Assembly: GCA_021300535.1 (NCBI GenBank)
Contig: JAJTED010000004.1
Span: 1-38,594, forward strand
Reading direction: 5' to 3'
Source: Planctomycetaceae bacterium
Lineage (GTDB): Bacteria; Planctomycetota; Planctomycetia; Pirellulales; UBA1268
DNA length: 38,594 bases
The notes below the pieces were generated by a model. That model made no database searches. It worked only from the letters and a program-made list of their open reading frames with translations, and had not been told where the DNA came from. Both the position numbers and the translations under genes were made by a program. Shown here piece after piece: positions 1 through 37,114 of this stretch (its first letter is position 1; the number at the start of each line of letters is the position of its first letter).

Positions 1-3000
1 TGAGGCGGTGCTCGTGCCGGCGACGACGGTGCCGTCGTCGAGATTGCCGGCTTCGGTGACCGCACCGGCCAGGGCGGCGGTCAGGTTCGTCACCACGGGC
101 ACGTCGTTGGTGCCGGTGATCGTGATCGTCACGTCTTGCGTTCGGGGCGAGATCTCGTTGCCGGCGCTGGCCGATGCGTAGCCTGCGTCATCGGTCACGG
201 TGATCCGGTAGGTGACCGTTACCGTCTCCCCGGCAGCGAGATACTGGGTGAGTTCGTTATCAACGGCGAAGCTCCACGTGACCGTGCCTGAGTTGGCAGG
301 TCCCCCGAGGGATTCACTCGTCATCACCCGATTGCCGGTGCCTGAGCTGGCGACTGCAACGAATCTCTGTTGACCGGAAGGGCCACCCCAACCAACTGAA
401 TTCCAGGTGTTGCCGGCCGAGGATTGCGACGTCCAGCTGATGCCATCCGGTGAGGTCATCACCCGGCCACCGGTGCCTGCGCTGGCGACCGCGACGAATT
501 TCTCCTGACCTGCCGGACCACCCCACACGACCGACTGCCAGAGGCCCGCGGCAGCGGCCGAAGTCCAAGTGATTCCATCCGGTGAGGTCATCACCCGATT
601 GCCATCGCCCGCACTGGCGACTGCGACGAATTTCTCCTGACCGACCGGCCCGCCCCACGCGACCGACTGCCATGAGTTGTTGGCCGAGGAGCTTCGCGAG
701 GTCCACGTGATCCCGTCCGTGGAGGTCATCACCCGATTGCCGGTGCCCGTCTCGGCGACTGCGACGAATTTCTCCTGACCTGCCGGACCACCCCACGCGA
801 CCGACTGCCATGAGTTGTTGGCCGAGGAGCTTCGCGAGGTCCACGTGATCCCATCCGGTGAGGTCATCACCCGATTGCCGGTGCCCGAACTGGCGACCGC
901 GACGAATTTCTCTTGACCGGTCGAACCGCCCCACACGACCGACTTCCAGAGGTTGTCGGCCGAGGAGCTTCGCGTGGTCCAGGTGATTCCATCCGGTGAG
1001 GTCATCACCCGATTGCCGGTGCCCGAGCTGGCGACCGCGACGAATGTCTTCTGACCAGCCGGACCGCCCCACGCGACCGACTCCCAGAGGTTGTCGGCCG
1101 AGGAGCTTCGCGTCGTCCAGGTGATCCCATCCGGTGAGGTCATCACCCGATTGCCGGTGCCCGAACTGGCGACCGCGACGAATGTCTCCTGGCCGGCCGG
1201 ACCACCCCACGCGACCGACTGCCAGAGGTTGTCGGCCGAGGAGCTTCGCGTGGTCCAGCTGACGCCCGCAGGCGTGAGGGCTGCGACGGCGTCGCCGGAG
1301 AGCGTGAAACTGTTGGCAATGTCTTGCAGGGCGAGTTCGAGGGCTGCAGAAACCGAAGACCCGGTCGATGCGGTGGCTGTCACGAACGAGCGGGTCACCG
1401 TGGAGACGTCGGACGTGTCGAGATCGGAGAAGGTGATCGAGCCCGAGTCACGCAGCATCACCGGGGAGCCGGTGCCTGTGTCCTCGGTCACCGCGCCCGA
1501 CACGTCCACGACCGTGATGTCGGGCGAGTCGTTGGTGCCCGTGATCACGACCGTCACGGTCTGCGTGCGGGCGGAGGCCTCGTTGCCGCCGCTCGCGGAT
1601 GCATAGCCGGCGTCGTCGGTGACCGTGATCCGGTAGGTGACGGTCACGGTCTGGCCGGCCGCCAGGTACTGGACCTCGGCATCGGCGAGCTCGAAGCTCC
1701 AGGTCACGGTCCCGGCGTTGCTGCCGCTGGTGGCTCCCGAGAGCGTCACCGCCGATTGCAGGGCCGTCGCCAGCGACGCAGGGATCGCCGGGCCGGTCGT
1801 GGCATTGCTGACGTGGGCGACCGTCGCCGTGGAGGTGTCGGTGGTGTCGAGATCGGTAAACGTGATCGACCCCGAGTCACGCAACATCGCGGGTGAACCG
1901 CTCGTCGCGTCCTCCGTCACCGCCCCGGCCACGTCCGTCGCCGTGATGTCGGGCGTATCGTTGGTGCCCGTGATCGTGATGGTCACGGTCTCGGTGTCCG
2001 ACAGTGCCGTGCCGTCGTCATCGGTGACGGTGACGGTGTAGGTGAGCACGAGCGTCTCGCCGGCGGCGAGGTAGTCGAACGTCGTGCTGCCGGAGCTGAA
2101 GGTCCAGGTGAGCGTGTTCGTCGTCTGCAAGCCGCTGAGGATCGGCGACGGGCTGAGCGTGAGCATCGCCAGAAGCGCGGCGTCGCTCGGTGCGGCCGGG
2201 TCGGTGCGGTCGGAGGTGCCGGAGACGACGAGCGTCCGCGCCGCGGCCACCACGTCGGTGCGGTCAGCGTCGGTGACGGTGAGCGTGCCGGAGGTGGAGA
2301 GTCCGGCGTTCGTCTCGCTTAGGCCCGCCGTGTCGGGCCCGGCCGTGATCACCGGGGCGTCATTGGTGCCGGTGATCGTGATCAAGACCACTTGGTCGGC
2401 GGTGCCGGCGGTCGTGCTCGAGTCGGTGACCCGGATAGTGTAGGTGAGCGTGAGGGTCTCGCCGGCGGCCAGGTGGTTGAAGGCCTCGGAGCCGGAGGCG
2501 AAGGCCCAGGTGATCGTGCCACCCGTGGTCGAGTTCGTGATCACGGTGGCCGGGCTGTTGACCGTGAGCATCGCCTGGAGGGCGGCGTCGGTCGAGCCGA
2601 GGCCGGTCGTCGTGCCAGAGGCGACGACCGAGTGGACGGCGACGGAGACGGTGTTGGTGAGGTCGAGATCCGTCACCGAGAGCGTGCCACTCGTGGAAAG
2701 GCCGGCGTCGGTCTCGGTCAGACCCGCGGACGCACTGTCGCCGCCGCCCACCGTGATGAGCGGCAGATCCTGCGTGCCCGTGATCGTGATCACGAGGTTC
2801 TCGGTGTCGGTCCCGCCGAACGAGTCGGTGACCGTGACGGGATAGGTGATCGTGAGCGTCTCGCCGGCGGCCAGCCAGTCGAGGTTCACCGCCGCCGGGT
2901 CGTACGTCCACGCGATCGTGACCGTGCCGCCGGTCGTGGTGGTGGCCGGGCCGAGCGTGAGCACGCCGCTGGCCGTAAGCGGCGCGAGGTCGTACGCGCC

Positions 3001-6000
3001 CGGCACTGTGCCACCGCTCCAGCCCACGGTCGGCGTGCCCTGGGTGGCCGACACGCTGTTGCCCACGTCCTTGTCGGCGATCTGCAGCGTGCCGGTGAGC
3101 GAGAGATCCTGTGCCGAGGCGTCGGCCGCCTCGTTCACACCAGCCGCCGCGATCGTGAGCACCGGCACGTCGTTGGTGCCCTCGATCGTGATCGTCACGG
3201 TCTGGTCGGCCGTGGCGCCGGCCGTGTCGGTGACGCGGACGACGTATTCGAGCGTGAGCGTCTCCCACTGCTCCAGGTAATCGAAGGCCTGCCCGGCCGA
3301 GTTGAAGGTCCAGGTGAGAGTGCCAGTCGTGGCGGCCGAGCCGATCACGGGCGTGGGGCTGACGGCGAGCATCGCCTTGACCGCGGCATTGGTGATGCCG
3401 TTGTCATCGCCGGTCACGGTGACGCTCTGCACGGCCGCAGTCACCGTGTTCGTCAGGTCCACGTCGCCGATCGAGAGCGTGTTGCTGGCGGTGAGCGTGG
3501 TGTCGGTCTCCGTCAGCGACGCCGATGCCGAGTCGCCGGCGTTGAGCGTGATCGTCGGGCCGTCGTTCGTGCCCGTGATAGTGATCGTGACCGCCTGGTC
3601 ACGCGTGGCTGCGGGCGAGCTCGAATCGGTCGCGCGGATCGTGTACGTGAGCGTGAGCGTCTCGCCGGCGGCGAGGTAGTCGAACGCCTCGCTGGCGGAG
3701 TTGAACGCCCAGGCGATGGTGCCCGTCGTGGCGGTGCTCGCGATCACGGTGTTCGGGCTGTTGACCGTGAGCATCGCGAGCAGGGCGGCATCGGTGGAGC
3801 CGAGACCCGTGGTGGTGCCCCCCTTGGAAACCGCAGGCACGCTGACGGTGACCGTGTTGGAGGTATCGAGATCCTCGACCGAGAGCGTGCCGCTGGTGGA
3901 CAGGCCGGCGTTGGTCTCGGCGAGCGTCGCCGCGGCGGCGTCGCCAGAGCCGATCGAGATGGTGGGGGCGTCATTGCTGCCCGTGATCGTGACCGTCACC
4001 GTCGAACTGCCCGACAGCGGTGTGCCGTCGTCGTCGGTTGCGGTGACCGTGTAGGTCAGGATGAGCGTCTGGCCGGCGGCGAGGTAGTTGAAGTTCGTGC
4101 TGCCGGAGGCGAACGCCCAGTTCAGCGTGTTCGTCGTCTGCGAGCCTGTGAGGATTGTCGTCGGACTGAGCGTGAGCATCGCCAGAAGCGCGGCGTCGCT
4201 CGGGGCGGCTGGGTCGTTGCGATCGGAGGTGCCGGAGACGGCGAGCGTCCGCGTCGCCGTGACGACGTCGGTGACGTCGACGTCCGTGACCGTCAGCGTG
4301 CCGGACGCGGACAGGCCGGCGTTGGTCTCGGTGAGCGAGGCGGTATCGGGGCCGTTGGTGATCACCGGGGCGTCATTGGTGCCCGTGATGGTGATCACGA
4401 CGGTCTTGGTGGCGGTGGCCGAACTGGAGTCGGTGACCGTGACGGTGTAGGTGAGCGTGAGCACCTCGCCAGTGGCCAGGTAGTTGAAGGCCTCGGCGCC
4501 GGAGTTGAAGTTCCAGCCGAGCTGGTTGACGACCTGCGCATTGGTCAGGACGGTGCTGGCCGGCGAGAAGGTGAGCATCGCGACCAGCGCCACGTTGTTC
4601 GGGATCAAGCCGTTGGTGACGCCGCTGGCGGCCACCGTACTCGTCACGCTCACGGTGTTCGTGAGATCGACGTCGCGGACGGTGAGCGTGCCGCTGGCCG
4701 TCAGGGCGGCATTGGTCTCGGTGAGCGATGCGGAATCGAGGTTGCCGGTCTGGGCCGTGATCGTGGGCGGGTCGTTGGAGCCCGCGATCGTGATCGTGAC
4801 GTTCTGCGTGGACGACCGCTGCTCGTCGTTCCCGGAAGCCGAGGTAAAGCCCGAACTGTCGGTGACCGTGATGGCGTACGTCACGGTGACCGTCTGGCCG
4901 GCGGCCAGGTACTGGGCCAGCGCGTTGTCGATGGCGAACGCCCAGTTGACGGTGTTGGTGACGGGCGTGCCGGTGCCACTCGCCAGGCTGGGAGCCGAGA
5001 CGCCATCGCCGGAGATCGTGAAACTGCCGGCGAGGTCGCGGAGCGCCGCGTCGAGCGCCGCCGAGACGCTCGCGCCAGTGGAGGCCGTGGCGGAGACGAA
5101 CGACCGTGTGACCGTGCAGGTGTTGGAGAGATCGAGGTCTTGGAACGTGACCGAGCCGGAGTCGCGGAGCTGGGAGCCCGACGCCACGAGCGTCTGCGGG
5201 GCGGCGGTGCTGGCCTGGGTGTTGTCGGCGCCGCCAGCGGCGTTGGCCGCGAAGGTGGTGAGGGTGAACGGCACGCCCGCTGCACTGGCCGTGACCGTCA
5301 CGACCGACCCCACGGCGCCCGCCGTGAGGAAATCGCGGAGGCTGGCATGAGCGTTGATGGCCGCCGCGAGTCGGGCGGCCACGGTCGCCCGGGTGGCGTC
5401 GTCGTCGCCGCCGGTGATGTCGCCGGCGCCGACGGTGTAGCTCACCGCCACGCCGTTGATCGTCGCGGTGACGGAATCGCCCACCTGGTAAGCGCCGGAG
5501 AGCGTGACGGTGTCGACCTGGGCGGCGGCGGAGCCGGCTGTTGCAGTGTTCGTGTCTTCCGTCACGGCGCCGGTGACATCGACGATGGTGATGTCGGGGG
5601 AGTCATTCGTGCCCGTGACGGTGATCCGCACCGTGGACGTGGTCCACTTGGCCGCCCCCGACACGGCCGAGGAATTGTCGGTGGCCTTGACCGTGTAGGT
5701 CAGTTCGAGGGTCTCGCCGGCAGCGAGGAACTCGAAGGCGTTGTTGCCGCCGCCGGTGCCGGGGCCGGAGGTGAAGGTCCAGTCAAAGTCGCTGCCGGAG
5801 GGAGGGTTCGCGGTGAGCGCCGCGACGCTCGTGTTCGCCGTCCGAGTGCTCCACGTGACCCCCGCGCCATTGATGACGAAGGCCGGCCCGCCCGGCTTCG
5901 CGTTGGCGGCCGTCGTCCCGCTGCCCTCCGACAGCGACCAGAAGCCGACGAGGCCGGATTCCGTTCCGGTCGGCGACGTTGTGGAGAGCGCGGCGATTTC

Positions 6001-9000
6001 GGATGCCGTCTTCGACGTCGTCCAGATGCTGATGTTGTCGAGGCTCCCGTTGAGTGGCTGCTGCGCGGTGGCGTCACCGACGTGGTTTCCGGCCCGGATC
6101 TTGTCAGACGCGTAGGTGCCGTAATTCGCGACCGCACCGTGGTGCCACGTGGAATGGAGGGAGCCGTTGGCATAGAGGCTGATCGTGCCGGCGGCGGCAT
6201 TTCCGGTGATTGCAATGTGCGTCCACGTGTTGACCGTCAGCGTGGACGCCGTGGTGAAGTCCGTCCTCCCGGTCGCATTGGTCCAGATCGAGATGTTCCC
6301 GTTGGTCATCCACAACTCGACGGAGTTGTTCTGCCCCACGAGATCCTGACCGCCGGTCAGGCTCGACGGCCGGAGCCAGAAGCTGATCGTGAACGCCGAC
6401 ACGTTGCTCAGGGCCGTCGAGTTCGCCTCCAGATATCCGCCCGTGCCGGCGAAGGCGATCGCATTCTCGACCCCTCCCGTGGGAGCAAACTGGAGCATCG
6501 ACTGCAGGGTGGCGTTCGTGAGCGGCACCTGGCCCGCGGGGAACGTGCCACCGGTGATGGCGACCGAGTCGACGCTCAGCGCGATGGTGTCGGAATAGTC
6601 GATGTCGGTGACGGTCATCGACCCTGTGGCCGTGATCGAGGCGTTGGTCTCCGTGACGGCGGCGACGTCCGCACCGTTGGTGATCACCGGCGTGTCGTTC
6701 GTGCCGGTGATCGTGATCGTCACCGTCTCGTCCGCGGTGCCCGCGGGCGAGGCCGAGTCGGTGACCCGCACGGTGTAGGTGAGCTCCAACGTCTCGCCGG
6801 CGGCGAGGAAGTTGAAGGCCGCCGCACCGCTCGAGCCCGACGTGAAGTTCCAACCAAACTCAGAGCCCGTGGGTGAGTCAGCCGGCAGCGCCGAGACACT
6901 GCCGAGAATCAGTTCCGACGCGTACATCCGACCGGCATCCCCGATCGCCGTGTACGTCGTGCCGATGCTGGTGCTCGACAACGACGACTGGAGCCAGCCC
7001 CAGTTGCCGCCCGAGCCCTTCCACCCGATCGAACCGACGCTTTGCGTGCCGATCGTGGCATCCGAGTTGTTGAGGTTGCGGTCGATGTGCCCATGCGTGT
7101 AGTTGCCGTTGAGCAACCGATCGCTGCCGCTCACCAGGTCAAAATCGAACGTGTACTCGCCGGCCGTCGTCGTCAGCCGTGAGCGGCCAACGCCGCGAAG
7201 CACGAAGTTCGAGCCGACTTTCTCGAGAATCACCGGCGTGACCCAACTGCTGTTGTAGCGGGCGTCGCCGGCCGGCGGTGTTGGCTTGTAGAGCTTCCAC
7301 TGGCCGACCACGCCGGTCATGCCCGTGGGCACGGTGTTCACGTTCAGCCCGCCCTGCTGGTTATCGAGGAGGGTGATCCCCGTGCTGCTGCTCGAGCCGA
7401 CGCTGCCGCTGCTCGTGAGCAGCTGCAGCTGCAGCATCGCCGCAAGTTCGGCGTTGGTGAGCGGCACGCTCGCCGCGTTGAACGTGCCGCCCGTGATCGC
7501 CACCGAGTGAACCGTCGCGGCGACCGAGTCACTGGTGTCCTTGTCGATGGCGGTGAGGGTGCCGGATGCCGTCAGGACCCCGTCCGTCTCGGTCAGGCTG
7601 GCCGTGTCGGGGCCGCCAGTGATCGTCGGGGCGTCGTTGGTGCCCGTGATCGTGATCGTCACCGTCGAGCTGCCCGACAGCGGTGTGCCGTCGTCGTCGG
7701 TCGCGGTGACCGTGTAGGTCAGGATGAGTGTCTCGCCGGCGGCCAGGTAGTCGAACGTCGTGCTGCCGGAGTTGAAGTTCCAGTTCAGCGTGTTCGTCGT
7801 CTGCGAACTCGTCAGAACCGTCGTCGGGCTGAGGGTGAGCATCGCCAGTAGGTCGGCATCGCTCGGGGCGGCAGGGTCGGCGCGGTTCGACGTGCCGGAG
7901 ACGACGAGCGTCCGCGTGGCGGTCACGACGTCGGTGACGTCGACGTCGGTGACGGTGAGCGTGCCGGAGGTGGCCAGGCCGGCATTGGTCTCGGTGAGCG
8001 AGGCCGCATCGGGGCCGTTGGTCACGACGGGACCGTCGTTGGTGCCGACGATCGTGAACACGAGCGATGCTTGGGAGAAGCCGCCGCGGCCGTCACCGAC
8101 GCGGTAGGCGAAGGTGTCGGTCAGTGTCTCGCCGGTCGCCAGCGCCTGGACGGCGGTCTTGGTGTTGTCGAGCGAGTAGATGTAGGAGCCGTTGGCACCG
8201 ATGGCCAGCGAACCGTAACTGCCGACGACCGTGGACGCACCGGAAGTGCTCGTCGTGCCGGCGGGAATCGTGTTCAGGACCGAGATGCGGTAGCCCAGGT
8301 TCGTGGCCGTGCCCTGATCGGTCCACGAGCTGGTGTTGGAGTTGTAGGACGCCGTCTGCTCACCGCTGCCCGAGACGACCCAACGCTTCGAGGCTGGACC
8401 GTTTCCGGCCTGGGTGACCACAAGCCAGTACTTGGTGCCCGCCACCAGGCTGACGCTGCCGGTGAGGGAGGAAAACTCCACGGAGGGGGCGGGCGTGTTG
8501 TGCGTGCCGGAACGGACCGAGGTGGTGGCCCAGTCGCCGGTTGCGAGAACGCCGAGGCTCGCGGTCGGCGTCGTGCCGCTGCCGCTCCAGATCTCGACGT
8601 TGTAGTTCCGGAAATCTCCGTAGAAGGCTTGGTCGCGGTAAAGATTCAGGCTCACGCTCGAAACCAGGCCGCTCGAGGCCGCGGTGAACTGCTGGGCCCA
8701 GCGGCTGATGTTGCCGTAGTGCCGGTCGCTCCCCGTGGCAGTCCCGCCGGCGGCCAGGGTGCCCATGGAAGACGCGACGCGGTAGTCGTCGGCATTGGTT
8801 GTGGCCGCTCCGGCCTTAACGCCCACGACGGAGAGCACGTCGGCCGCGTCCTGGTCGCTGTCGGGCGTGCCGTCGGTGAGGACGTTGCCCGAGACGGTCG
8901 AGGTGCTGCTCGTCAACAGGCCCTCGTTCAGGCTGTTGGTGTTCGCCGTGACGACCGGCAACCGGTTGATCGTGAGCGTGATGCTGCCCGAGACCGTGGC

Positions 9001-12000
9001 CTGGCCGCCGTTGCCTTGGTCCTGGCCGCTGCCGGCGGTGCCGCCGCCGGTGGTGTTGGAGTTCTGGTCGTTGAACGTGACGTCGAGCGTCACCGAGTCG
9101 TACGCCAGCGACCCGGGCGTCGTGATGGCGTTGGAGTAGGTGATGCTGTTGAGGGCGGTGTTGACCCGGGCGGTCGTAGCGCTCGCGTTGAACGTGATCG
9201 TGAGGGTGCCACCGGAGTTCGTGAAGGTGCCGATCGTCACGCCGGAGACGACGACGTTGCCGGAGGTCAGCGACAGGCTGCCTGAGCTGCCGAAGACGTC
9301 GTCGGCGCTAGCGCCGCCGCTGCGGCGGATCGTGAGCGTGCTGCCGTTCCAGTCGCCTGCCGGCGAAATGCCCGTGAGGGCCTCGAGGTCGACGTCGGAG
9401 AGCACCGCGTTGGCGTCGATGACCACGGGCGAACCGGCCTGGATATAGGTCGTGGCGCCGGTGGCGTCGAGGCCTGTGAGCAAGGGGCCATCGTTGATAC
9501 CGACCACGTTGATGGTGGCGGCGGTCGTCGTGGCCGACTTGGCGCCGCCTGTCGTGCCCTCGTTGCCCCCGTCGTTGAGCGTGACGGTGAGCGATCGCGT
9601 CGGCATCGTTCCCGCAACGGTGGGATTCTGGCTGGATGACGAGAAGCCGATCCGGCCGAGCAGGCCCTCCACGACGGCGTCGGTGACGCTCGTGCTCGTG
9701 AAGGTGATCCGCAGCGGCTTCGCCTGGCCGTCGTTCGTCGCGTCGATCGTGCCGATCGCGGAGCCGCCCAGCAGCACCTGCGAGCCGCTCAGCGTGCAAG
9801 ACAAGCCGTGAATGGTGCCTTCGACAACCTGGAGCCGGTCGCCCGCCACGTAGGCCGACTGGGCGATCTCGACGTAACCGCCATTGAAGTGCTCGGCGTC
9901 GATATCGGAGACGCTGATGCCCGAGAGGAACTGCAGCGGCACGCCGTCGCCTTCGGTGAACGTCCCCGAGACGGTGGCCGTGACGGCCGGGGCGTCGTTG
10001 ACCGAGACGACGTTGACCGTCGAGCTGACCGAGATCGACCGGGTGTCCACGCCGGAGAGCGACGTGCCGCCGTCGTCCTGAATCGTGGTGGCCGTGACCA
10101 CGCGGTTGCCCGCGGTCGGGTCGTCACTCGTGTGCCGGTAGGCGAGGCCGTTCACGAGCGTCGTGGTCTGGGCCTCGGTAAGGCCGGTGTGCGTGTACGT
10201 GAGCGTGGCGGTGCCGCCGCTCACGCTGACGGTCACGTTGCCGGCGTTCGTGGCCGTGGGCGACGTCGTCCCGTTCACGAGGTCGATCACCGTGCCGTCG
10301 ATGGTCACCTTTTCGGCGGCGCCGTCCGCGACACCTGCCACCGTGATCACCAGCCGCACGATCCGCTGGCCGGCCTCGATCGTGCTGGTCGCGGCGTCGC
10401 TGAAGAGCGTGACGGCCGTGCCGTTCTCGGTGAAGGTCGGGTTCGACGGCGTCGCCGTCAGCGAGGGCGGGTCGTTCGGGGCCGTGATCGTCACGGAGCC
10501 GGTGATCGTCGTGGCCGCGGCCGAGGGGGGGCTGCCGCCGGCGTCGTCGCCGTCGGCGTCGAGGTTGTTGCCGTCCTCGAGGACGATCGTGAAGTTCCGC
10601 GGCGTGCTCGGCGGCTGGTCGCCCGTGTGCTCGAAGCGGATGGCCTCGAGGATCGTTTGCACCTGGGCGATCGTCGCGGCCGGGGTGAGCGTGATCAGGA
10701 AGTCGCCGAGATCGGCCGGGCCGCCCGAGGTGAAGGCCACGCCCGCGGACGATCCCAGGCTCCCGGCGAGCGAGAATCGGTCGCCCGCCTGCGGGCTGGC
10801 GAGCGACACGCGGATCGTGCCGCCGCCGAACACCGTCGACGTGAGGCGATTGGTCGTGGCGAGGTCGACATCGGCCACGGTCACGCCCGCGAGCAGTTGC
10901 TGCGTCGGCGTGCCGACGCCGTCGGTCGGCGATTCGGCGATCGTGCCGGTGAAGACGCCGCCGGTGAAGCCGGTGCCGCCGCCCGTCGTGGTCACGGTCG
11001 GGGCGTCGTTGCGGGCGGCGATCGTGAGGTCGATCGTGACCGCAGCCGCGGTCACCCGGGATTCACCGACCGACGTCGTGGTGTTCCAGGTGAGCGGCGT
11101 GGCGGCGTCGCTCGTGTAGGCCGAGGGGCCGATGTCAGCTGCCCCGCGCGGTACTTGGTTCTCGATGCCGAACACCGTGAGGGACGGCCGCAGGCTCGCC
11201 AGGCCGGCCGTGCCGGTGTTGGCGTGCGCCGCAGGCACGAACCGCACTTCGGTGGAGGCCGAGAAGAGCAGGGCCTGCGTGGTCGAGATGCCACCGGAGA
11301 CGTTGCCGGCCAGCGTCTCGAGGCTCACCCAGGTCGGCGAGCCGCTCGTGCCGAGGTTCACCTCCCAGGCCCCGAGCGACTTCGTGTCGAAGGCCGAGAT
11401 CGCCACGCCTTCGAGCGTGGTGCCGCTCACCTGGTCGGGGTCGGCGAGGTTCGCCGCCACAAGGGCCGCGAACGTGGTGGCCGTGGTCGTCACGTCCTCG
11501 ACGGTGGCGATGGTCACGCCGTCCGAGAGCGTCGGGGAGTCGTTGACGGCGACCAAGGACACGACGATGTCGGCCGTGGCCGAGCGCTCGCCGCCGGTGC
11601 CCTGGGCGTTGTTCGTGGTGCCGTTGCCGTCGAAGAACGCGACTTCGATCGTCTTGTTGCCCGTCTGGAGTGTCGCGTTGGTATTTGAGTAGGCGAGGTT
11701 CCGCAGAACGGTGTTCACCGCGGCGGGCGTGGCGTTCGCGTTGAACGTCACCACGAGTTGTCCGCTCGTGGCACTGTTGTCCGTCAGCGTGGCGACCACG
11801 ACGTCGCCGGAGCCGGGGTTGTAGAGGATCGCCGAGCCGCTGTTGAACAGCGTGATGCCCGAGCCTGGTTGGGTGAAGCCGCCCTGGATTGAGAGACCAG
11901 AGCCCGTCTGGACGACGAACAGGTCGTCGGTGTCGAGGGCGGTCTTGTCGCCCACGACCAGTCGGGCCCCGTTGAACGTGGTCTCGTTCCGGAGGACGAG

Positions 12001-21000: not shown

Positions 21001-24000
21001 CAGCGGCGAGCCATTGGCGAGGGCGGCCGAGACCGTCAGCACGTCCTGATCCGGATCGGTAAACGTGGCCCCCGGGAGCCGGAAGCTCTGGGCCCCGGTG
21101 GTGCTCCACTGCTGGTTGTCGATCGCGGCGGCCACCGGCGGGTTCGACGGGATCGCGAGCAGCGTCGCCTCGGGCCGGTTGACGCTCACGCCGTCGGTCA
21201 CGTTCACCCGCAGCCGGCCGCTTGTCTGGGTCGAGTCCTTCGTGAACTTGAGCCGCCCGGCCGCGATGTCGGCTTGCGTGAAGGTATCGACGGCGTTGGG
21301 ATTCGAGTCGGAGCGGAAGGCGAGCGGCTGCTCAGCGCCGTTGAGCGTGCCGCTCGAGTCGGCGTCGATCCAGAACGTGCCGCCGGAGGGCTCCTCGAGC
21401 AGCGTGAAGACGAGCTGCGCGGCGGTCTGCTGGGCGTCGGCGGCCCGCAGGTTCGCGGTGGTGATCGTCGTCGTGCCGCCCAGGGCCACGTAGAGCGGCG
21501 TGGCATAGACCGATGGGTCGGTCTCGACCACGTCGGTGAGCGTCACGGTGAGCGTCGTCGAGTACGTCAGTCCACCGGAATCGGTGACCTCGACGGTGAT
21601 CGACTGGGTCGGCGCCCGCTCGTAGTCGAGCGTCGCGGTGTCGGACACCTTCACGGTGCCGTCGGGCGTGATGATGAAGCTCGGGTTGCCGGTGATCCGG
21701 AAGCGGACCGTCTCGTTCGAGTTGGGATCGGTCGCGGTGAGCGTGCCCACCACGGTGCCGGTGGCGGAGTTCTCCGCCACGCTGCCGCCGGTGGCCCAGG
21801 CGATCGCCGTCGGGGCGTCGTTGGTGTCGGCGACGTTGAACGTGATCGTGGCGGGGCTCGACGAGGCCGAGCCGTCGCTCACCGTGAAGCCGAGCGTCGC
21901 GTAGCCGGTGCCGAAGGCGTCGGCGACCGGCGTGAACTTCAGGCTTCCCGCCGTGATGTCGGCAAGCAAGATCTGCTGGTTCAGCGAGACCGCGACGTTC
22001 GCGAGCGTGAGGCTGCCCGCCGTGGGCAGCGTCGTGATCGTGATCGACTGCAGCGTGTTGCCCGCATCGACGTCGGCGAACGCGAAATCGGTTGCCGTGA
22101 ACGTGTAGGTCGTGTCCTCGGCGAGGCTGATCGTCTTGCCGGCCGTCGTGGGCGGGTCGTTGACGGCCGTGACGCTGATCGTGGCGGTTTCCTGGGCGGC
22201 GCTGACGGTCGTGTTGCCGCCGGCGGCGAGCGGGTTGGTAGTGCCGCCGGCCGAGCCCGTGCTCTTGTCCCAGGCCCGGTAGCTGAAGGTCGCCGTGCCG
22301 TTGAAATTCGCGTCGGGCACGAACCGCACCGAGTCGGTGCCGTCGAGCAGCCGCGACGAGGCACCGAGCGTGACGACGCCGCGGCTGACGGTGAACGCCG
22401 TCCAGCTGCCGGAGCCGACCTTGTACTGCCACTCGCCGTAGGTATTGTCGACGGTCGTGACCGCGATCGCCTGTGGGGCCGTCGCGGGCGAGAGCACGTC
22501 TGGATCGGTGATGCTCCCGTCGATGACAAGCGAGGACACCGTCGTGTCGGACGGCAGCGGCACCGAGATCGCCAGACCGGGAGTGGTCTCGTACGCGCCG
22601 GAGAGGATTTGAAAGGTCTTCGCGGAGGAGTCCCACGTCACCTCAAGGTAGCCGTAGTTGAACGTGCTCCCGTTGTCATTCGTGAAGCGGAACCCGACGT
22701 AGCTCCCCGGACCAAAGTTTGCCGCGACGTTGCCGAAGTACTGGAACGTCGTTGACTCAAACTGCCACTGAAACGTCGCGCTGCTGGAGATCGAATCGCC
22801 AGCGGCGAAGTTCCGGATACCCGCAAGGGACCCGGTCACCGCGAACTGAAGCTCCGAGCTGCCCGAGGACGGAGAGCCCGCGAGTCCCCAGACGTTGGGG
22901 CTCGCAGAGCCGCTCGTGAAGGCGTTGTAGACCCGCAGGCTCGGACCACTCACGGGGAAGTTCGCGACGTCGGTGACGCTGCCCGCGGACCCGCCGCCGT
23001 TTGGGTTCCCGAGGCTGCCGTACGAGGCGAGGTTGATGCTGACCACCGCCGTGTTGGCCGCATAGGTCATGTCCTCGGCGATGGCGGCGACGACGGGCGC
23101 TCCCGAGATGTCGAGCACCGGTGGGTCGTTGATCGCGACCACGGTGATCGTGACCGTGGCGGCCGAGCCGCTCGTGAGGTTGCCGTCAGTGGCGATGTAA
23201 GAGAAGGTCGCCGAGCCGGTGTAATTTCCGACCGGGGTGAATTCGAGCCGGGCCAGGTCGCCCGCCGTGACGACGGCATTCACGGCAAGCGTGGCACCGT
23301 CGAGCCGCAGGATGCCCGCCGTGGCCGACGGAATCGCGGTGAGCGTGATCGAGGCGAGCGAGTCGAGCTCCGGATCGGCGAACCGGCTCGTGAAATCGGT
23401 GGTGGCGAAGGCCAGCGTGGTGTCTTCCGAGATAGAGGCAGACCAGCTCGTCACCGACGGGGCGGTATTGCCGACGCGGACGGCGATGTTCCGCGACCCC
23501 GAAACGGTCCTGTCGGGGAGCGTCGCCGGGGGGGCGAAGAGCGGGATCGCGAGCGACGTGCCGTCGATGCCGTACTCGATCAGCGAGCCAATGTTCGACT
23601 GGTCGTTCTTGTAGTCGTTGAGCGCGAAGCCGTAGTTGTTCAGGCCGCCGTAATGTTCGGTGCCGCCATTGTCGTTATTCGGCTCACCGGGGCTCCAGAA
23701 CGTGGACGTGGTGAAGTTGGCATCGGTCGTCATGCCGGCCTGGTCGCCGGTCACCCACTGCCAGCCGCCGGCGGGCTCGACACTCGTGTTGGTCTGCTGG
23801 AGACCGACCCACTGGTCGGACTGGTTTCGCAGCCGGTTGAACCAGCCGGCGATCCGCAGCTCGTTGAGGTCCGTCACGCGGGCGAGGTAACCGGTCTGGC
23901 CCTCGTAGGAGGTGCCCGCGGCGTTCGAGGCCGCTCCCTGCCAGGTGCGGCCGGTGGCATCGACGCGGTAGTAGTGGCGGCTGCGGGCGCTGTAGGCGTA

Positions 24001-27000
24001 TCCCGCATCCTTGAAGAGCATCGCGTTGCCGGGATCGCGGGTGGCCGAGATCGTGCCGGTCAGTTCGACCGGGAGCGGCAGCCGCTCGTCGCCGAACTCG
24101 ACGACGTAGCGAAGCGCGGAGGCGCCGTTGTTGTCGTTGTAGTTGTACTGCGTGATGTCGACGTGGTTCTCCCGCACCCCGCCGCCATGATCCCAGTTGT
24201 TTGGCTCGCCACCGTTCCACGAGCCGTTGAAGGGCTGGCCGGCCTTGGGGCCTGTCGCCCAGTAGAAGTTGCCGGTTGGCTCATTGTTCGAGTTGATTTG
24301 TCGGGCCCCGGCCCAGGCATTCCCCACACCTGAGTTGGCGAGGATTGCCCGTACGATCTGCATGCTGGCGTTGTCGGTAGGCGTCGCGAGGTAGCCGGGC
24401 TGGCCGGCGACCGTCAGTGCCTCGGCGTTGCTCTTGGCGGTATCCCAGTTCGCCGTGCCGCTCGGCAGGCCGTAGTAGTGGCCGTTGGAGTGGCTGTAGT
24501 AATACGTGTCGCTGCCGCTGGCCACCATCGTCGCCAGCAGATCGACCTGGAGGGAGAGCGAGGTTTCGTCCCAGGCCAGTGAACCGTTGCGATGCACGGC
24601 AAAGATGAGCTTGTCGCCCTGAGCCAGCGCGATCTGCCTGAGCGAGGAGACCGTGCCGCCGCTGGGATTGGTGCCGGTCACCTGGGCCCCGGCATCCACC
24701 TCGGTCAGGGTTGTGCCCGAGAGTTTGAAGACGCGGAACTTCGAGTCGCCGTTCGATGAGTGCGTCCGCCAGAACCGGGCGTCGACGCCGAAGATGCCAC
24801 TGATGGGCGCCGTGTACTGGGCCGCCGTCGGATAGTCGCGCGGCAGCGTCGTCACCTCGCCCGGCCGCTGGGTGAAGCCATCGGCGGAGAAGTTCTCGGC
24901 CGTGTTCGGCAGAAAGTCGAAGTCGCCGACGCTTGCGCTCTGCTGCTGCGCCCGGACACGAGCGCCGTTGTTCATGACGTGGAGTTGCGGCGTCGCCCCG
25001 GCGCGGCTGAACGAGCGGAAGATGTCGCCCGACGGGTTGCTCGTCCAATCATTGGTGTTCGCGCCGATGTCGATGAAGCCGAGGTCCCATGGCCCCTGCT
25101 GCCACTGCGGCGAGCGGAGGTCGAAGTCGCGGCCGAGGTTCCAGGAGTTGGCCGCCCTGTTGTCGGCGGTGCCGTCGAGCGGATACCACGACACGAGGTT
25201 CGACTCGTAGCCGGTGAGCGTGGTGTTGGTGTCGAGCGAGGAGGTGACCTCGAGGCCGTTGAGTGCCCGGTTGTAGACGCGGAGATCGCTGATCGAGCCC
25301 TTCCAATACTCCTCCCAATCCTGGGTGTTGTTGCGCTTGTATTGCCGTCCGATTCGCATGCCCATGCCGGGAACCGCGTTTGGCAACTGGCCGGTGGCGA
25401 TCTTGATGCCGTCGATGTAAAGCGTGCCGTTGGTCGAGCTCGTGCCGCTCTTGACGACCGTGAACTGGTGCCACTGACCGTCGGTCGGCATGCCGCCGGT
25501 CACGGTCCAGAGATCGCCGAGTCTGAGGTTGTTGCCCGCGTCTGTCCGCTGAATGAAGAAGTTCTCGGCGCTCGTGCCCTGGGCAAGAATGGTGTGTTTG
25601 CCGCTGTTGCCGAGGATGGAACTATCGGCGAGCGCCCAGACCGAGACCGTCCAGTCGCCTCCCATCGGGATGGCGGCCCGCATCGTCTCGATGTAGTCGT
25701 CGGTGCCGTCGAAGACCGCGGCGCTCACGCTGCCGACGTTCCGGGTGCGGAGCGTGATGCTCACGGTCCGGAGGTTGTCGTTGGACGTATCCGACGAGCT
25801 GAACTGCAGCGACCGGAGTACCTGCTGGTACTGGGTCGCGGTGCCCGTGCCGCCGAGCGTGAGTGCGCCGCTGGTCGCGTTCCACGAGGCGGTGATCGAC
25901 CCCACGACCGTGACGGCCAGCAGGTCGCCCGACTGGAAGTTGCCCGACACGCTATCGACGACGGTGATCGTGGCCCCGAGCACCGCGTCGAAGTCGGTGG
26001 CGTTCGTCGTCAGCGGGGCGTCGACGTCGATGAGCGAGATGCCCGGATCGACCGCGACGGCGGAGAGCGTGTTGCCCGTGTTGGGCCGCACGACGAGTGT
26101 CCGGCCGGTCGAGGTGACGAGCCGGGGCGGGTCGTTCACGAGCACGACCTCGATCGTGGTCGTGGCCGGGTTCACAGCCTCGGTGACGCCGTCGGTGGCG
26201 GTCCAGGTGAAGCTGTCGGGCGTGGTGCTCAGGTTGGCCGACGCGCCGCCGGCCCAGTCGGCCCGCGGCGTGTACCGCAGCGAGCCGAGGTTGGCCGCGA
26301 CGATCACCTGATTCACGGCCACGGTCTCGCCGGCGTCGAGGCTGCCGCTGGAGTTGGTGTCGAGCCAGAGCGTGCCGTTGCCGGGCAGCGTCACGATCCG
26401 GATCGCGGCCAGTCCCTTGCCGGTGCCGGTGGTGCCGTTGGAGGAGTCGTGGCTGTCGCCGTCGCTGAAACCAAAGTTGGCCGCGATGAAGCTCAGCGTT
26501 GCGTCCTCGTTGACCGTGAGCGTGGTGCCGGCCACGGTCGGAACGTCGTTGTTGTTGAGCAGGCGGAGCGTAAAGTCGGTGGAGGCCGTGGCGGTGGGCT
26601 GGCCCGAGCCGTCGTTGGCCGTCAGCCGGATCACGAGGTCGGTGGCGTTCGCGGGTGGGTTACCGGTGAAGGTGCCGGACGTCGGATCGACGGTGAGCCA
26701 CGGGGGCAGCGGCGAGCCGTCGCTGAGCGTGGCCGAGTAGCTGAAGACGGTGCCGGACGGGTCGGCGTCGGTGAACGTGCCCGCCGGCGGGGTGAAGGTG
26801 AAGCCGCCGGAGCCAAACCAGCTCTGGGTGGGGATCGCCGCCGCGACGACGGGGCGGTCGTTGTCACTCGAGAAGACGGCGTTGAAATCCCGCGTGGCGG
26901 TCGCCTGGCCGTCGGAGGCCGTGAGGCGGATCGCGAGCGTGCCCGCGTTGGCGGGCGGGTTGCCGGTGAACGTAAGGCTGTTGGGGTTGAAACTCAGCCA

Positions 27001-28983: not shown

Positions 28984-29229
28984 GTCGGCCGGGGCCAGGG
29001 TTCTCCAGCGGACGCAGCGGTGCGGCCGGCTTTTAACCCACTGCTTTCCCTGCTCTCCCGGTTTTCCTGGCCCCCCTAGCCTCTCGGCGGCCGGTGTTAG
29101 CGGTCCTGCCGCGTGCCGTGGGCAGGGGGGGAGTCGGCCGTGCCGCGGGGCCGATGACGGTCAGTGGCGGGGGCGGGTCGTCAAGGAAGGCGGTCGGTCG
29201 CTTCCCCCCTTTTAGGTGATTTGCTTCGG
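28984..29229. other. Divergent intergenic region
   Basis: This stretch separates the minus-strand giant gene from the plus-strand outer-membrane gene, so it should hold at least part of both promoters. It contains pyrimidine-rich tracts (for example around 29,030-29,080) and a small cctgcc/ggcagg hairpin near 29,105-29,127. I see no convincing second promoter or RNA gene. A plus-strand GTG at 29164 is in frame with the barrel gene but lies upstream of the better ribosome site. Confidence 0.5.
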
Positions 29230-30285
29230 ATGCAACGCATGGACGCTCGTCAGCAGCGCCGCCGGAAGCCCCGCGGCTCGGTCGCGGTCGCCTCCCGCCT
29301 GTCAGGGGCCGTGCGTTGCCTGGTCTGCTGGCTCGTGGCGATGACGCTCCTGCCGGCCCGGGCCGCCGACTGGTCGCCGGCCGGCGGCGATCGCCGCCCC
29401 ACGTTCTCCGGTGGTGTGGAGGCGCTGCTGCTGTGGCGGGATGGGCTGCCCGACCGGCCGCTCTATTTCGAAAGTGCCAATCCCGAGATCGTGCCGCTCG
29501 ATGCGGGCGGGATCGCCACGGGCATGGCCGCCGGGCCCCGCTACCGGATCGACTGGAGTCCCGACGGCGTGGGGGCCTTCGAGTTCAACTACTTCAACGT
29601 CCAGTCTTTCAGTGGCTCCCGGAGCGTGGCCTCGCCCTCGGCCGGCCTGGAGCAGGACAACATCATCGGTTTCCTCTATCCCGACGTCACGGCGGCGACG
29701 GCCGCGTCGTCCTCGGGCATCCAGTCGTTCGAACTCAACCGCCGCCGGCAGTTGGGCATGTTCGAGGGGGACTTTCTCTACGGCTTTCGGTGGGTCGAGT
29801 GGCACGACGGCCTGCGGATCACCGACACCACGGTGACCGGGCTCACCACGGGCTCCGACCTGTTCACCACCGACACGATCAGCAGCCTGTACGGCGCCCA
29901 GATCGGCCTGGACATGGTGCTGCTCGGCAGCCGCTGGGGTCAGGCCTGGCTCGAGGGCATCGGCAAGGCCGGCATCTACTACGACCGGGCCGTGCAACGG
30001 AGCTTCGTCGACAGCGTGAGCACCGACCAGATCGTCCGCAGCACGGCGGCCACGGCCGATCTCACGAGCTTCTTCGGCGAACTCGGCTTCACCGGCTGCC
30101 TGCGGCTTTCGGACCACTGGGTGGCCCGCACCGGCTTCACGATGTTCTGGCTGGGCAACGTGGCGGCCGCGGCGGACCAGCTTTCCGCCAACAACCTCTA
30201 CGCCGACGAGATCGTCAGCGGCATCCGGGCCCGCGACTCGGTGTTCCTCTACGGCCTCAACCTCGGCCTCGAAGCCGGGTGGTGA
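29230..30285 (+). CDS. BBP7-like outer-membrane beta-barrel protein
   Basis: A 351-residue protein. The ATG at 29230 is preceded by AGGTGA (29214-29219) ten bases upstream; a GTG at 29164 and an ATG at 29239 are in frame but less well placed. The N-terminus is basic, then hydrophobic (CLVCWLVAMTLLPARA), with probable signal-peptidase cleavage after ARA. The mature part has alternating strands: FSGGVEALLLWRDG, YRIDWSPDGVGAFEFNYF, SFELNRRRQLGMFEGDFLYG, AWLEGIGKAGIYYDRAVQR and FFGELGFTGCLRLSDHWV. It ends in a terminal Trp, as barrel proteins often end in an aromatic residue. This layout matches the planctomycete BBP7 (DUF1551-type) family, whose function is unknown. It is transcribed away from the giant gene. 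A role in anchoring or exporting the giant protein is only a possibility. Confidence 0.8.
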   Translation: MQRMDARQQRRRKPRGSVAVASRLSGAVRCLVCWLVAMTLLPARAADWSPAGGDRRPTFSGGVEALLLWRDGLPDRPLYFESANPEIVPLDAGGIATGMAAGPRYRIDWSPDGVGAFEFNYFNVQSFSGSRSVASPSAGLEQDNIIGFLYPDVTAATAASSSGIQSFELNRRRQLGMFEGDFLYGFRWVEWHDGLRITDTTVTGLTTGSDLFTTDTISSLYGAQIGLDMVLLGSRWGQAWLEGIGKAGIYYDRAVQRSFVDSVSTDQIVRSTAATADLTSFFGELGFTGCLRLSDHWVARTGFTMFWLGNVAAAADQLSANNLYADEIVSGIRARDSVFLYGLNLGLEAGW

Positions 30286-32471: not shown

Positions 32472-34349
32472 TCATGCGGCCCCATCGCGCTTTTTCGCAG
32501 CGTCGCGTGCGGCCGCCCTGCGGTCGTAGATGAGGGGAACGATCGCCTCGACGGGGCCAGCCGCCGTTGCTGGCTTACCGCCCTGGCTTGCGTGGATCGA
32601 GTCCCAGACCGGGACGGGTGCACTATCGCGATCCGTCGGCTTCCCCCGCTCGAGCACCGCCAGGGCCGGAACGGCGTTGATCGTGAACCGGGCGACCATC
32701 TGCGGGTTTTCGTATCCATCGACGTGTTGCTTTTGGATGACGACCTCGCCCACGAGGGCCTTGAGCACCTGAGCCGCCACGCCCACGTCACCCTGCAGCA
32801 GGTCTCGAAGCTTTCCGAGCGCGGCGACGATGTCCTTCTCCGTGACGCTCCGCACGGTCGGCCGTCGGCCGGCTCGCTGGAGTTCCTTGAGTTGCTCCCG
32901 CTTGGCCGCCAGTTGCCGACCCATCTCCTCGGCCTTGGCGAGCACGGCGTCGAGGTGCGTGTCGTCGAGCTTGGCGAGCCGGTCGGTGAGCCGCTTCAGT
33001 TGCCGGTCCTCATTCGCGATTTCCTGCTCGAGCTTCTTGGTGGACGGAATCGGCTGTCGGGCGATCCAGGCGAGCCGCTTGTTCACCTCGGCCGTCAGGT
33101 CGGCAATGAAAGCGTCGGTGAAGAGCGTCGCCATGATGGTCCGCAGCACCGCCTCGTCGATGATCCGAGCCGACTTGTAGCCCCGGTTCGTGCAGCCGTG
33201 AATCCCGTTGTTCGCGTTGAAGCAGAAGAAGCTCTGGTACTTGTCGTCGGATCGCCCGAGGATCATCGGGTTGCCGCAGCCACCGCAGGTCGGCCGGACG
33301 AGCACCTTCGGGTACAGGTCCACGCGGTGGGCCTTCTTCTTGCGATTCTTCGCCTTGCGGCCGAAGGACTCCGCACCCCGCCCCAGCTTCTCGAGCACCG
33401 CGTTCGCGAGCTCATCGGAGAAGATTCGCAGGTGGGGCACGTCCCGCCAGATCCACTCCGACTTCGGCAGGTAGATCACCTTCTTCTTACCGGTCTGGCG
33501 GTCGGTGGCCTGCCTGCTCTTGTGCATCACGTCCTTGCCGACGAGCCGCTCGCGGGCGTAGTGCTGACGGACCCGGCTGTCGGACCACGTCTGCTTGCCG
33601 CCCACCTTGTGCTCGTTGAAGAGCCTTGCCACGTCGATGGCGCTCTTGCCTTCATAGGCGATCATCTCGGCACCCCGTCGCGTCCAGTCGGCTGCCTCCG
33701 GGGCGATCTCGACGACCTTCTCGATCGTGTTCTTGTGGGTGATCACGAGGTTGCCGTGGGCGTCTTTCAGATCCACCAGCCGATAGCCCACGCCGGGCGG
33801 CGAAATGTTGTCGCCGCGTCGGAAGGCATCGTCCATGCCCCGATTCACCTTGGATCGCAACTGTGTGATGAACGCCTCGTTCATCGAGCCGAGCACGGGC
33901 AGGAGCAGGGACGACTGCGGGTTGGCGCTGTCGAATCCGTCGCTGGCACCTATGACACGCACTCCGGTCTCGTCGGCGAGTTCCCCGAGCCGCAGCGACT
34001 CGATCGTGTTGCGGCTCATCCGGGAAAGGTCGTCGATCAGGAACCACGCCACCCCTGACGCTTCGCGTCGTTCGACCAGGGACTTGGCGAGCGTGTAGCC
34101 GGTGCGGCAAGCGAGCGTGCCGCTCACGGCGGCGTCGGCCATGACGTATTGCCACGGCACAAAGACACTATCCCGCCGAGCGCGATTCAGGACGTTGAGA
34201 AGCTGCTGGTCGAGCGACCGCGGGTTGGAGTTCTCATCGCTGAACCGCAGGTAGGCGACCGCCAGAGCAATCCAGGCGAGCGGGGTATCGCCTAGCCGGA
34301 ACGCTTCGGCGTGCTGTTGCCGGAACCGCCGTTCGAAGTCGTCGGCCAT
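32472..34349 (-). CDS. Large serine recombinase
   Basis: A 625-residue protein from ATG 34349. The resolvase domain (about 27-190) has AVAYLRFSDENSNPRSLDQQ with the nucleophilic Ser at residue 37, then WFLIDDLSRMSRNTIESLRL and GVRVIGASDGFDSANPQSSL. A recombinase domain follows (GVGYRLVDL, DVARLFNEHKVGGKQTWSDS, GKDVMHKSR). Next is a four-Cys zinc ribbon, RPTCGGCGNPMIL with FFCFNANNGIHGC, and a long Arg/Lys/Glu coiled coil. This is the full architecture of site-specific large serine recombinases. The frame is open up to 34592, but that extension is Pro/Ala/Arg-rich and overlaps a better small gene, so I prefer 34349. There is no strong ribosome site at 34349. It may have mobilised this region; no attachment site is identified. 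Confidence 0.9.
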   Translation of the reverse strand: MADDFERRFRQQHAEAFRLGDTPLAWIALAVAYLRFSDENSNPRSLDQQLLNVLNRARRDSVFVPWQYVMADAAVSGTLACRTGYTLAKSLVERREASGVAWFLIDDLSRMSRNTIESLRLGELADETGVRVIGASDGFDSANPQSSLLLPVLGSMNEAFITQLRSKVNRGMDDAFRRGDNISPPGVGYRLVDLKDAHGNLVITHKNTIEKVVEIAPEAADWTRRGAEMIAYEGKSAIDVARLFNEHKVGGKQTWSDSRVRQHYARERLVGKDVMHKSRQATDRQTGKKKVIYLPKSEWIWRDVPHLRIFSDELANAVLEKLGRGAESFGRKAKNRKKKAHRVDLYPKVLVRPTCGGCGNPMILGRSDDKYQSFFCFNANNGIHGCTNRGYKSARIIDEAVLRTIMATLFTDAFIADLTAEVNKRLAWIARQPIPSTKKLEQEIANEDRQLKRLTDRLAKLDDTHLDAVLAKAEEMGRQLAAKREQLKELQRAGRRPTVRSVTEKDIVAALGKLRDLLQGDVGVAAQVLKALVGEVVIQKQHVDGYENPQMVARFTINAVPALAVLERGKPTDRDSAPVPVWDSIHASQGGKPATAAGPVEAIVPLIYDRRAAARDAAKKRDGAA

Positions 34350-34368
34350 CGCCGCGATCGTGGAGGGG

Positions 34369-34605
34369 TCAGCTGCTGGCACGGCGGCCGTTCCGGCGAG
34401 GTCGGGCCAGAGCCCGGGCCTGAACCTCGAGGTAGGTGCGAGCCAGGTCGAGAAGCCCCTGCCGCTCAGGCATGCCGAAGTCGGCGCTTCGGATCTGCCC
34501 GCGGCGGCTGGGGGCCGGGGCGCTGCTGGCGGCGGAGGACTGCGGGGCAGGGAAGGAGGAAGAAACACTGCCGGCGGGGCCGGCGTCGTCATTGAAACGA
34601 AGCAT
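34369..34605 (-). CDS. Small hypothetical protein upstream of the recombinase
   Basis: A 78-residue protein starting MLRFNDDAGPAG. It has a Ser/Pro/Ala-rich low-complexity middle and then an ordered C-terminal part, RRGQIRSADFGMPERQGLL, followed by DLARTYLEVQARALARP. The composition is balanced, unlike the overlapping Pro-rich extension of the recombinase frame. The stop lies 19 bases before the recombinase ATG, so the two probably share a transcript. A GAGG about 11 bases before the ATG may serve as ribosome site. No domain is recognised. It might be a recombinase accessory or directionality factor by position only. Confidence 0.6.
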   Translation of the reverse strand: MLRFNDDAGPAGSVSSSFPAPQSSAASSAPAPSRRGQIRSADFGMPERQGLLDLARTYLEVQARALARPRRNGRRASS

Positions 34606-36978: not shown

Positions 36979-37114
36979 TCGCTTGCCCCGGCCAGAGGAA
37001 CGGTCGTTTTCGCCGTGTTTTCCCGGGCACAAGCCGGCGCAAGCATGCTTTGCTAGCAGATGAAAAAAGTGTTGGTGTGTGGAAAACACCCCATCCTCAC
37101 GGAGGCCCAACGCC

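Follow-up and report, generated by a model that had tools for sequence, protein, structure and literature searches.

The window analyzed here, a 38,594-nucleotide stretch, is the entire contig C135 (JAJTED010000004.1) of the draft genome of a Planctomycetaceae bacterium (GCA_021300535.1, 197 contigs), and it carries a gene for a giant repeat protein in which several VCBS units are interrupted by other domains. The gene occupies positions 1 to 28968 of the reverse strand, on which all units and inserts described below also lie, and it reads through 9,656 codons without a stop, with the C terminus of the product lying past the contig end. A DUF4347 domain was detected near the N terminus (27853 to 28302; Pfam PF14252, E = 1.8e-46), and the middle of the protein is a long series of cadherin-like units (Cadherin_3, Cadherin_4, and Big_9). 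An NCBIfam scan of the 2,806-residue C-terminal part found 14 stretches of the VCBS model TIGR01965, and a search of the genome gave 15 matches, all 15 above the curated cut-off of 15.5 bits and 13 of them in the giant protein. TIGR01965 spans chiefly the C-terminal half of the long VCBS units present here and has no room for inserts. A unit profile, A1, was built from nine units of the window, relatives were gathered in 72 loci of named genomes, and a 138-column model was made from 281 distinct full units. There are nine ordinary long-type units of 393 to 429 bases (131 to 143 residues), eight in tandem from 1534 to 4776 and one from 7639 to 8040, and four far longer units of 939, 1,092, 831, and 1,425 bases (277 to 475 residues), in keeping with an original prediction, made from the letters alone, that most units measure about 405 bases and four are much longer.

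Three of the long units, U1 (6700 to 7638, preceded in the protein by the ordinary unit at 7639 to 8040), U2 (5608 to 6699), and U3 (109 to 1533), matched the 138-column model in two pieces, at columns 5 to 78 and 82 to 138 for U1, 5 to 80 and 71 to 138 for U2, and 5 to 75 and 79 to 138 for U3. By blastp, residues 1 to 71 and 247 to 313 of U1 corresponded to residues 2533 to 2603 and 2604 to 2667 of a related locus, L054, with no residue missing between them. Matches to intact units likewise defined the halves of U2 as residues 1 to 79 and 294 to 364 (or 307 to 364) and those of U3 as residues 1 to 69 and 414 to 475. Moreover, when U3 and 13 intact units were aligned with MAFFT, a single long gap resulted, located at the insert. 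The original prediction had cast VCBS units as hosts in which each insert interrupts a single unit, and the flanking halves were indeed complementary and contiguous in intact units. Contiguous matching of the halves rules out that the inserts of U1, U2, and U3 lie between complete VCBS units.

To locate the split within the unit, single-insert scoring was used, in which one free insertion was allowed on the 138-column model. It took the place of gap placement by global pairwise alignment to 82 references, which was noisy and worst for U3; alignments that included LamG-only rows put the hosts in the wrong place. The zone bounded by the AML and W-x-F strands (AML-to-W, columns 67 to 93) scored best for all three hosts, with 151.7, 147.1, and 138.8 bits for U1, U2, and U3 compared with 141.6, 138.9, and 133.3 bits for the next zone, leads of 10.1, 8.2, and 5.5 bits, respectively. 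As a control, all three intact window units that were scored in the same way did better without a split. The insert column was loose within the zone, at 85 to 92 by single-insert scoring and 75 to 82 by profile matches, and thus "same loop" is the safe wording. Blastp, single-insert scoring, and structure models (below) agree on the predicted placement of three inserts at one homologous loop. We conclude that U1, U2, and U3 are each one VCBS unit split at one common hairpin loop, the one that joins the AML and W-x-F strands.

The three inserts differ from one another. That of U1 (6901 to 7425, by blastp boundaries) is 175 residues long and, as predicted, belongs to no known family: Pfam gave only DUF5331 at an E value of 0.23, NCBIfam gave nothing, a search of 293 other genomes found weak relatives in 3, and tblastn against plasmids gave no match. 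The insert of U2 (5800 to 6462 by blastp, with the lower end between 5782 and 5821) contains the anticipated LamG domain (core 5992 to 6447; Pfam PF13385, E = 9.8e-23). The insert of U3 (295 to 1326) consists of seven repeats of about 46 residues, the number foreseen, and six carry an Asp-box-like S-x-D-G-x-x-W motif. The repeats suggest a putative beta-propeller; for a low-confidence structure model of the insert, no propeller was recognized among the matches listed. Designed beta-trefoils also matched the repeats weakly (best E = 0.0041), which was attributed to chance. The bounds first proposed for the three inserts, 6870 to 7425, 5990 to 6480, and 310 to 1270, pointed to the correct regions and are replaced by the measured ones.

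The host units resemble the extender repeats of AhLap (PDB 6XI1; profile match, E = 9.7e-25), with which they share profile and fold at about 134 residues per unit as opposed to 106 in AhLap. A structure model of U1 plus U2 aligned to two 6XI1 repeats across the inserts, and a model of U3 aligned to one repeat across its insert; the inserts themselves were predicted with low confidence. Structure prediction, suggested at the outset as a check, therefore models the halves of each host as a single 6XI1-like repeat. We conclude that the flanking halves of U1, U2, and U3 are predicted to form one beta-sandwich domain of the AhLap extender type in each case. According to an excerpt of the structural report, three calcium ions occupy the 6XI1 joints, with ligands that include E143/D144, D160/D162, D220, and N128/D129 (PMC7493085). 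In the profile alignment, the window units have their N-D, D-x-D, and late T-D at the positions of N128/D129, D160/D162, and D220, and U1, U2, and U3 retain all three motifs, whereas E143 lies two columns ahead of the window E, such that the E-D pair was not matched column by column. We note that the calcium-motif script overlooked some units. Given that window residues occupy the N-D, D-x-D, and late D ligand positions of 6XI1, the rod is likely stiffened by calcium at its joints. In sandwiches of this type the strands are aligned with the rod and the loops sit near the joints, such that inserted heads would probably fan out at joints and not mid-rod.

The fourth long unit (4777 to 5607, delimited by unit lengths, profile, and single-insert scoring) is split elsewhere. 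Its insert of about 120 to 124 residues (5173 to 5544) lies just after the ED motif, with best split columns 27|28 and bounds between host residues 21 and 146 (or 24 and 145), and the zone of the first strand and ED motif (A/ED) scored 132.4 bits compared with 126.7 for the next zone, a lead of 5.7 bits. The original prediction had likewise placed an insert here, at 5195 to 5530, and had assigned it to another loop. The insert has no known family, with only a sub-cut-off match in Pfam (20.8 versus 25.1 bits). A blastp split test of this host, the left part of which is only about 21 residues, gave no matches. The unit's own hairpin is intact; its 27 residues put it close to the top of the range of 9 to 28 obtained for 359 loops.

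A fifth insert, absent from the original prediction, was found in a classic VCBS unit (8041 to 8967; TIGR01965 above cut-off at 7987 to 8259). It is a choice-of-anchor R domain (8224 to 8739; NCBIfam NF041539, 31.6 bits, cut-off 30) located in the loop that precedes the YG hairpin. The same classic unit occurs without the domain in L053, the C-terminal part of a close relative: residues 1 to 84 and 257 to 321 of the segment matched L053 residues 198 to 283 and 273 to 337 by blastp, and the flanks were 80% and 70% identical. Four further L053 units were 83%, 84%, 88%, and 88% identical to window residues 8870 to 9004, 8335 to 8468, 8469 to 8599, and 8600 to 8733, respectively, the first being equally close to residues 6978 to 7113. 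The part of L053 seen contained no insert-bearing unit but did hold one intact U3-type unit (L053:2962-3360), 40% identical to U3. The simpler reading of these sequences would be that the choice-of-anchor head was gained in the window lineage and not lost in L053. L053 (positions 1 to 5214) lies on a contig filed under a Cyanobium metagenome-assembled genome (MAG) even though its units are 83 to 88% identical to the giant protein, and it may be mis-binned. By eye, with no RTX model run, its C terminus contained no RTX repeats.

A tree was built from 85 host units with inserts removed (136 columns), in which 37 of 82 inner branches were well supported, limiting the event count. U1 was the sister of U2 (100/99), and U3 was the sister of the fourth host (100/96) and then joined the unit at residues 9003 to 9145 (100/96). 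Because U1 pairs with U2 whereas U3 pairs with the fourth host, we conclude from the tree that the hairpin was apparently interrupted at least twice and that three events are not required. U3-type repeats also occur on another contig of the same genome, C87, where they are 72% identical over 170 residues and are followed in frame by glycine-rich sequence. C87 (locus L296, 1 to 6767, reverse strand) holds two Asp-box-like arrays in different glycine-rich frames, the second of which (37% Gly) carries a different repeat array. The GC content at third codon positions of the U3 insert was 0.765 compared with 0.928 for the neighboring hosts; that of the other four VCBS inserts was 0.884 to 0.911. 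Within the U3 insert, DNA repeats were 86 to 87% identical.

To ask how general the hairpin site is, A1 searches were extended to other genomes. Matches occurred in 2 of 60 relatives and 7 of 294 genomes of the phylum (own genome counted in both), all 27 genomes behind the loci, 37 of 297 of the Mesorhizobium order, 19 of 300 of the Limnohabitans order, 3 of 240 of the phylum of a Verrucomicrobiales MAG, and 76 of 241 of the Neorhodopirellula family; in the 294-, 297-, 300-, 240-, and 241-genome searches the best 13 to 17 candidates per genome were scored and regions were limited to 20 kb. The VCBS unit had no tblastn match in plasmids or phages, PHROGs gave no match, and two viral-contig scans found no relative. 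Half-unit profiles were run on the window and on 277 loci totaling 3.0 Mb, some of which overlap and all of which had been chosen for their resemblance to intact units; this count detects gaps of at least 70 residues where both halves score and partly misses inserts in the N-terminal half. Among 1,062 distinct pairs of halves from 159 sequences (window included), 12 had a gap of at least 120 residues: three were U1, U2, and U3, one was a false pairing across the window protein, and by eye none of the other eight, identified by gap length, lay in the AML-W hairpin. Thus, in this similarity-chosen sample, the hairpin was interrupted only in the giant protein, with one outside unit (L094b, below) ambiguous. 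The survey repeatedly encountered units of this kind in long open frames, of 6,500 to 13,571 codons.

Inserts elsewhere, classified by eye, included a PA14-like domain before the YG hairpin (L068), a CBM-like domain before D-T-D-V-D (L061), and CBM-like domains near ED (L188 and L228). Long gaps in L072 (an out-of-frame stretch), L076, L083/L129, L096, L108, and L158 were rejected, also by eye, as mispaired halves or faults; of these, L072, L076, L083, and one of L108/L158, together with L068, L061, L188, and L228, account for the eight outside pairs. Long spacings between C-terminal halves, of which 23 plus 60 (many in part) of 108 and 4 from a later listing were read, revealed CBM-like domains in L189, L190, L221, and twice in L101, LamG-like domains in L090, L220, and L222, and an unnamed domain in L145. 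In an Afipia locus (L094), VCBS units carry apparently helical domains near ED, unlike lectin-type heads, and a locus of the Neorhodopirellula family (L344, reverse strand) has an NHL-like repeat domain of about 270 residues right after the first strand; both were assigned by eye. A VCBS protein of Chlorobium ferrooxidans (L111, about 9340 to 9700) has a long D-G-H-G-D-H repeat, possibly metal binding, between units. Single-insert scoring placed 13 of 15 outside insert-bearing units in the A/ED zone, a figure that is not a rate since the units were picked by eye from a larger set. The other two weigh against this pattern or are unclear: L094b scored best in the AML-W zone (75.3 bits versus 72.3 mid-unit and 68.9 A/ED, a 3.0-bit lead) with an insert near ED by eye, and for L068 the zone ahead of the YG hairpin led by 0.7 bits. 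Both units seem to be of the classic type, which the 138-column model suits less. The proposal that the hairpin is the tolerant display loop of VCBS rods generally was therefore not borne out. Because the hairpin was interrupted only in the giant protein and 13 of the 15 outside units were split at A/ED, the A/ED loop of the fourth host looks, in this sample, to be the commoner site and the hairpin a specialty of this lineage. These results suggest that the interrupted loop differs between lineages.

We consider it probable that the product is a giant rod of cadherin-like units in which several VCBS units act as split domains holding heads. The tandem rod would probably be secreted or surface held, and its last third would be chiefly VCBS units of the AhLap extender type. 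The chain would exit a beta-sandwich at a loop, fold a second domain, and return to complete the sandwich, leaving the head gripped by two adjacent strands and the rod unbroken; three heads would exit via the AML/W-x-F hairpin, one via the loop after ED, and one via the loop before the classic YG hairpin. The heads may stick out from the rod and may bind ligands. The alternative that the extra domains sit between complete VCBS units like beads on a string is highly improbable: TIGR01965 alone, with its C-terminal bias, could make units look like truncated repeats beside whole domains, but both complementary halves are present at each hairpin insert and the models align across it to single repeats. 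Misassembly of a repetitive contig is very unlikely, as the junctions keep the reading frame and share one structural site and nesting also occurs in isolate loci (L090, Bradyrhizobium neotropicale; L101, Bradyrhizobium sp. NFR13), even though a draft of 197 contigs with repeats favors false joins.

What the heads do is the more debatable part. They could have arisen neutrally, through recombination within a repetitive gene, tolerated by loops and doing nothing selected; the insert-bearing long units sit in stretches that are extra relative to L053, and the 86 to 87% identity of the DNA repeats in the U3 insert is a sign of recent expansion. We regard neutrality as unlikely, since lectin-type heads (LamG by Pfam in the window and, by eye elsewhere, LamG-, CBM-, PA14-, and C-type-lectin-like) recur in other bacteria at few loops and the frame is kept over the whole gene. 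Enzymatic or structural heads, such as spacers that thicken the rod or link neighboring rods, would fit the absence of a known binding family for the U1 and fourth inserts and the apparently helical inserts of L094, but LamG and choice-of-anchor domains are mostly linked with ligand or surface binding, and we consider such roles quite unlikely overall. If the rod of split VCBS units does display binding heads, split units flag likely binding domains beyond the reach of family searches, the U1 and fourth inserts are testable candidates, and L053 offers a natural before-and-after pair for the fifth insert. More tentatively, VCBS/cadherin-like rod units across phyla may be one evolvable socket system, in which heads can be swapped at a small number of loops: the first strand/ED loop, the loop ahead of the YG hairpin, and, in this lineage, the AML-W hairpin. 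A given head family would also travel between dissimilar rods encoded by one genome, such as a VCBS rod and a glycine-rich rod. Binding repertoires would then shift through head exchange with the rod unaltered, a possibility we rate as doubtful.

Two other regions of the giant protein merit mention. At 23524 to 25713 (residues about 1086 to 1815), a LamG domain (Pfam, core 25246 to 25710) and two C-type-lectin-like stretches, recognized by eye, appear nested in a cadherin-like unit, and at about 22519 to 23016 (residues about 1985 to 2150) a stretch without a family match seemingly interrupts a W-Q-Y-S-type unit after its ED motif; blastp split tests for nesting gave no matches in either region. 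Beside the start of the giant gene, a frame on the opposite strand (29164 to 30285) matched BBP7 beta-barrel porins (E = 5.7e-7). Near the contig end, a serine recombinase with Resolvase and Recombinase domains and a UPF0236 protein (32472 to 34592 and 37079 to 38575) suggest mobile DNA.

Titles and abstract openings of the VCBS literature (insertion, cadherin, and giant proteins) contained no nested domains, and a search outside of which most subscription papers lay found nothing joining VCBS and the split domain. A split-domain rule of RTX adhesins is reportedly the title of a 2024 paper in Proteins, as cited in a reference list. In the accessible portions of related work, the ligand-binding domains of RTX adhesins emerge from, and are projected by, split immunoglobulin (Ig)-like domains (PMC10865825, PMC12077191). 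In FrhA, A. veronii SBD-UKD, MpIBP, and AhLap, as excerpted there, the head likewise leaves an unfinished Ig-like domain that is completed afterwards, with the head termini together, and one AhLap head follows the first strand, resembling the A/ED inserts of the survey and of the fourth host. Structure matches to the peptide-binding and split domains of MpIBP (6x6q and 5k8g) and FrhA (9ybq and 9y9w) were tied with cadherins and Ig domains and thus indicate a shared fold class and not kinship. The split domains of RTX adhesins, in the same excerpts, lie in the ligand-binding region after the extender repeats, whereas extender units themselves are the hosts in the giant protein, three of which, unlike in RTX adhesins, use the hairpin before the W strand amid ordinary rod units. 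Split-domain display would thereby be extended from RTX adhesins to planctomycete VCBS rods. We conclude that the split-domain principle is already known and that what is new here is VCBS hosts in a planctomycete, the hairpin site, and a relative with an empty site.

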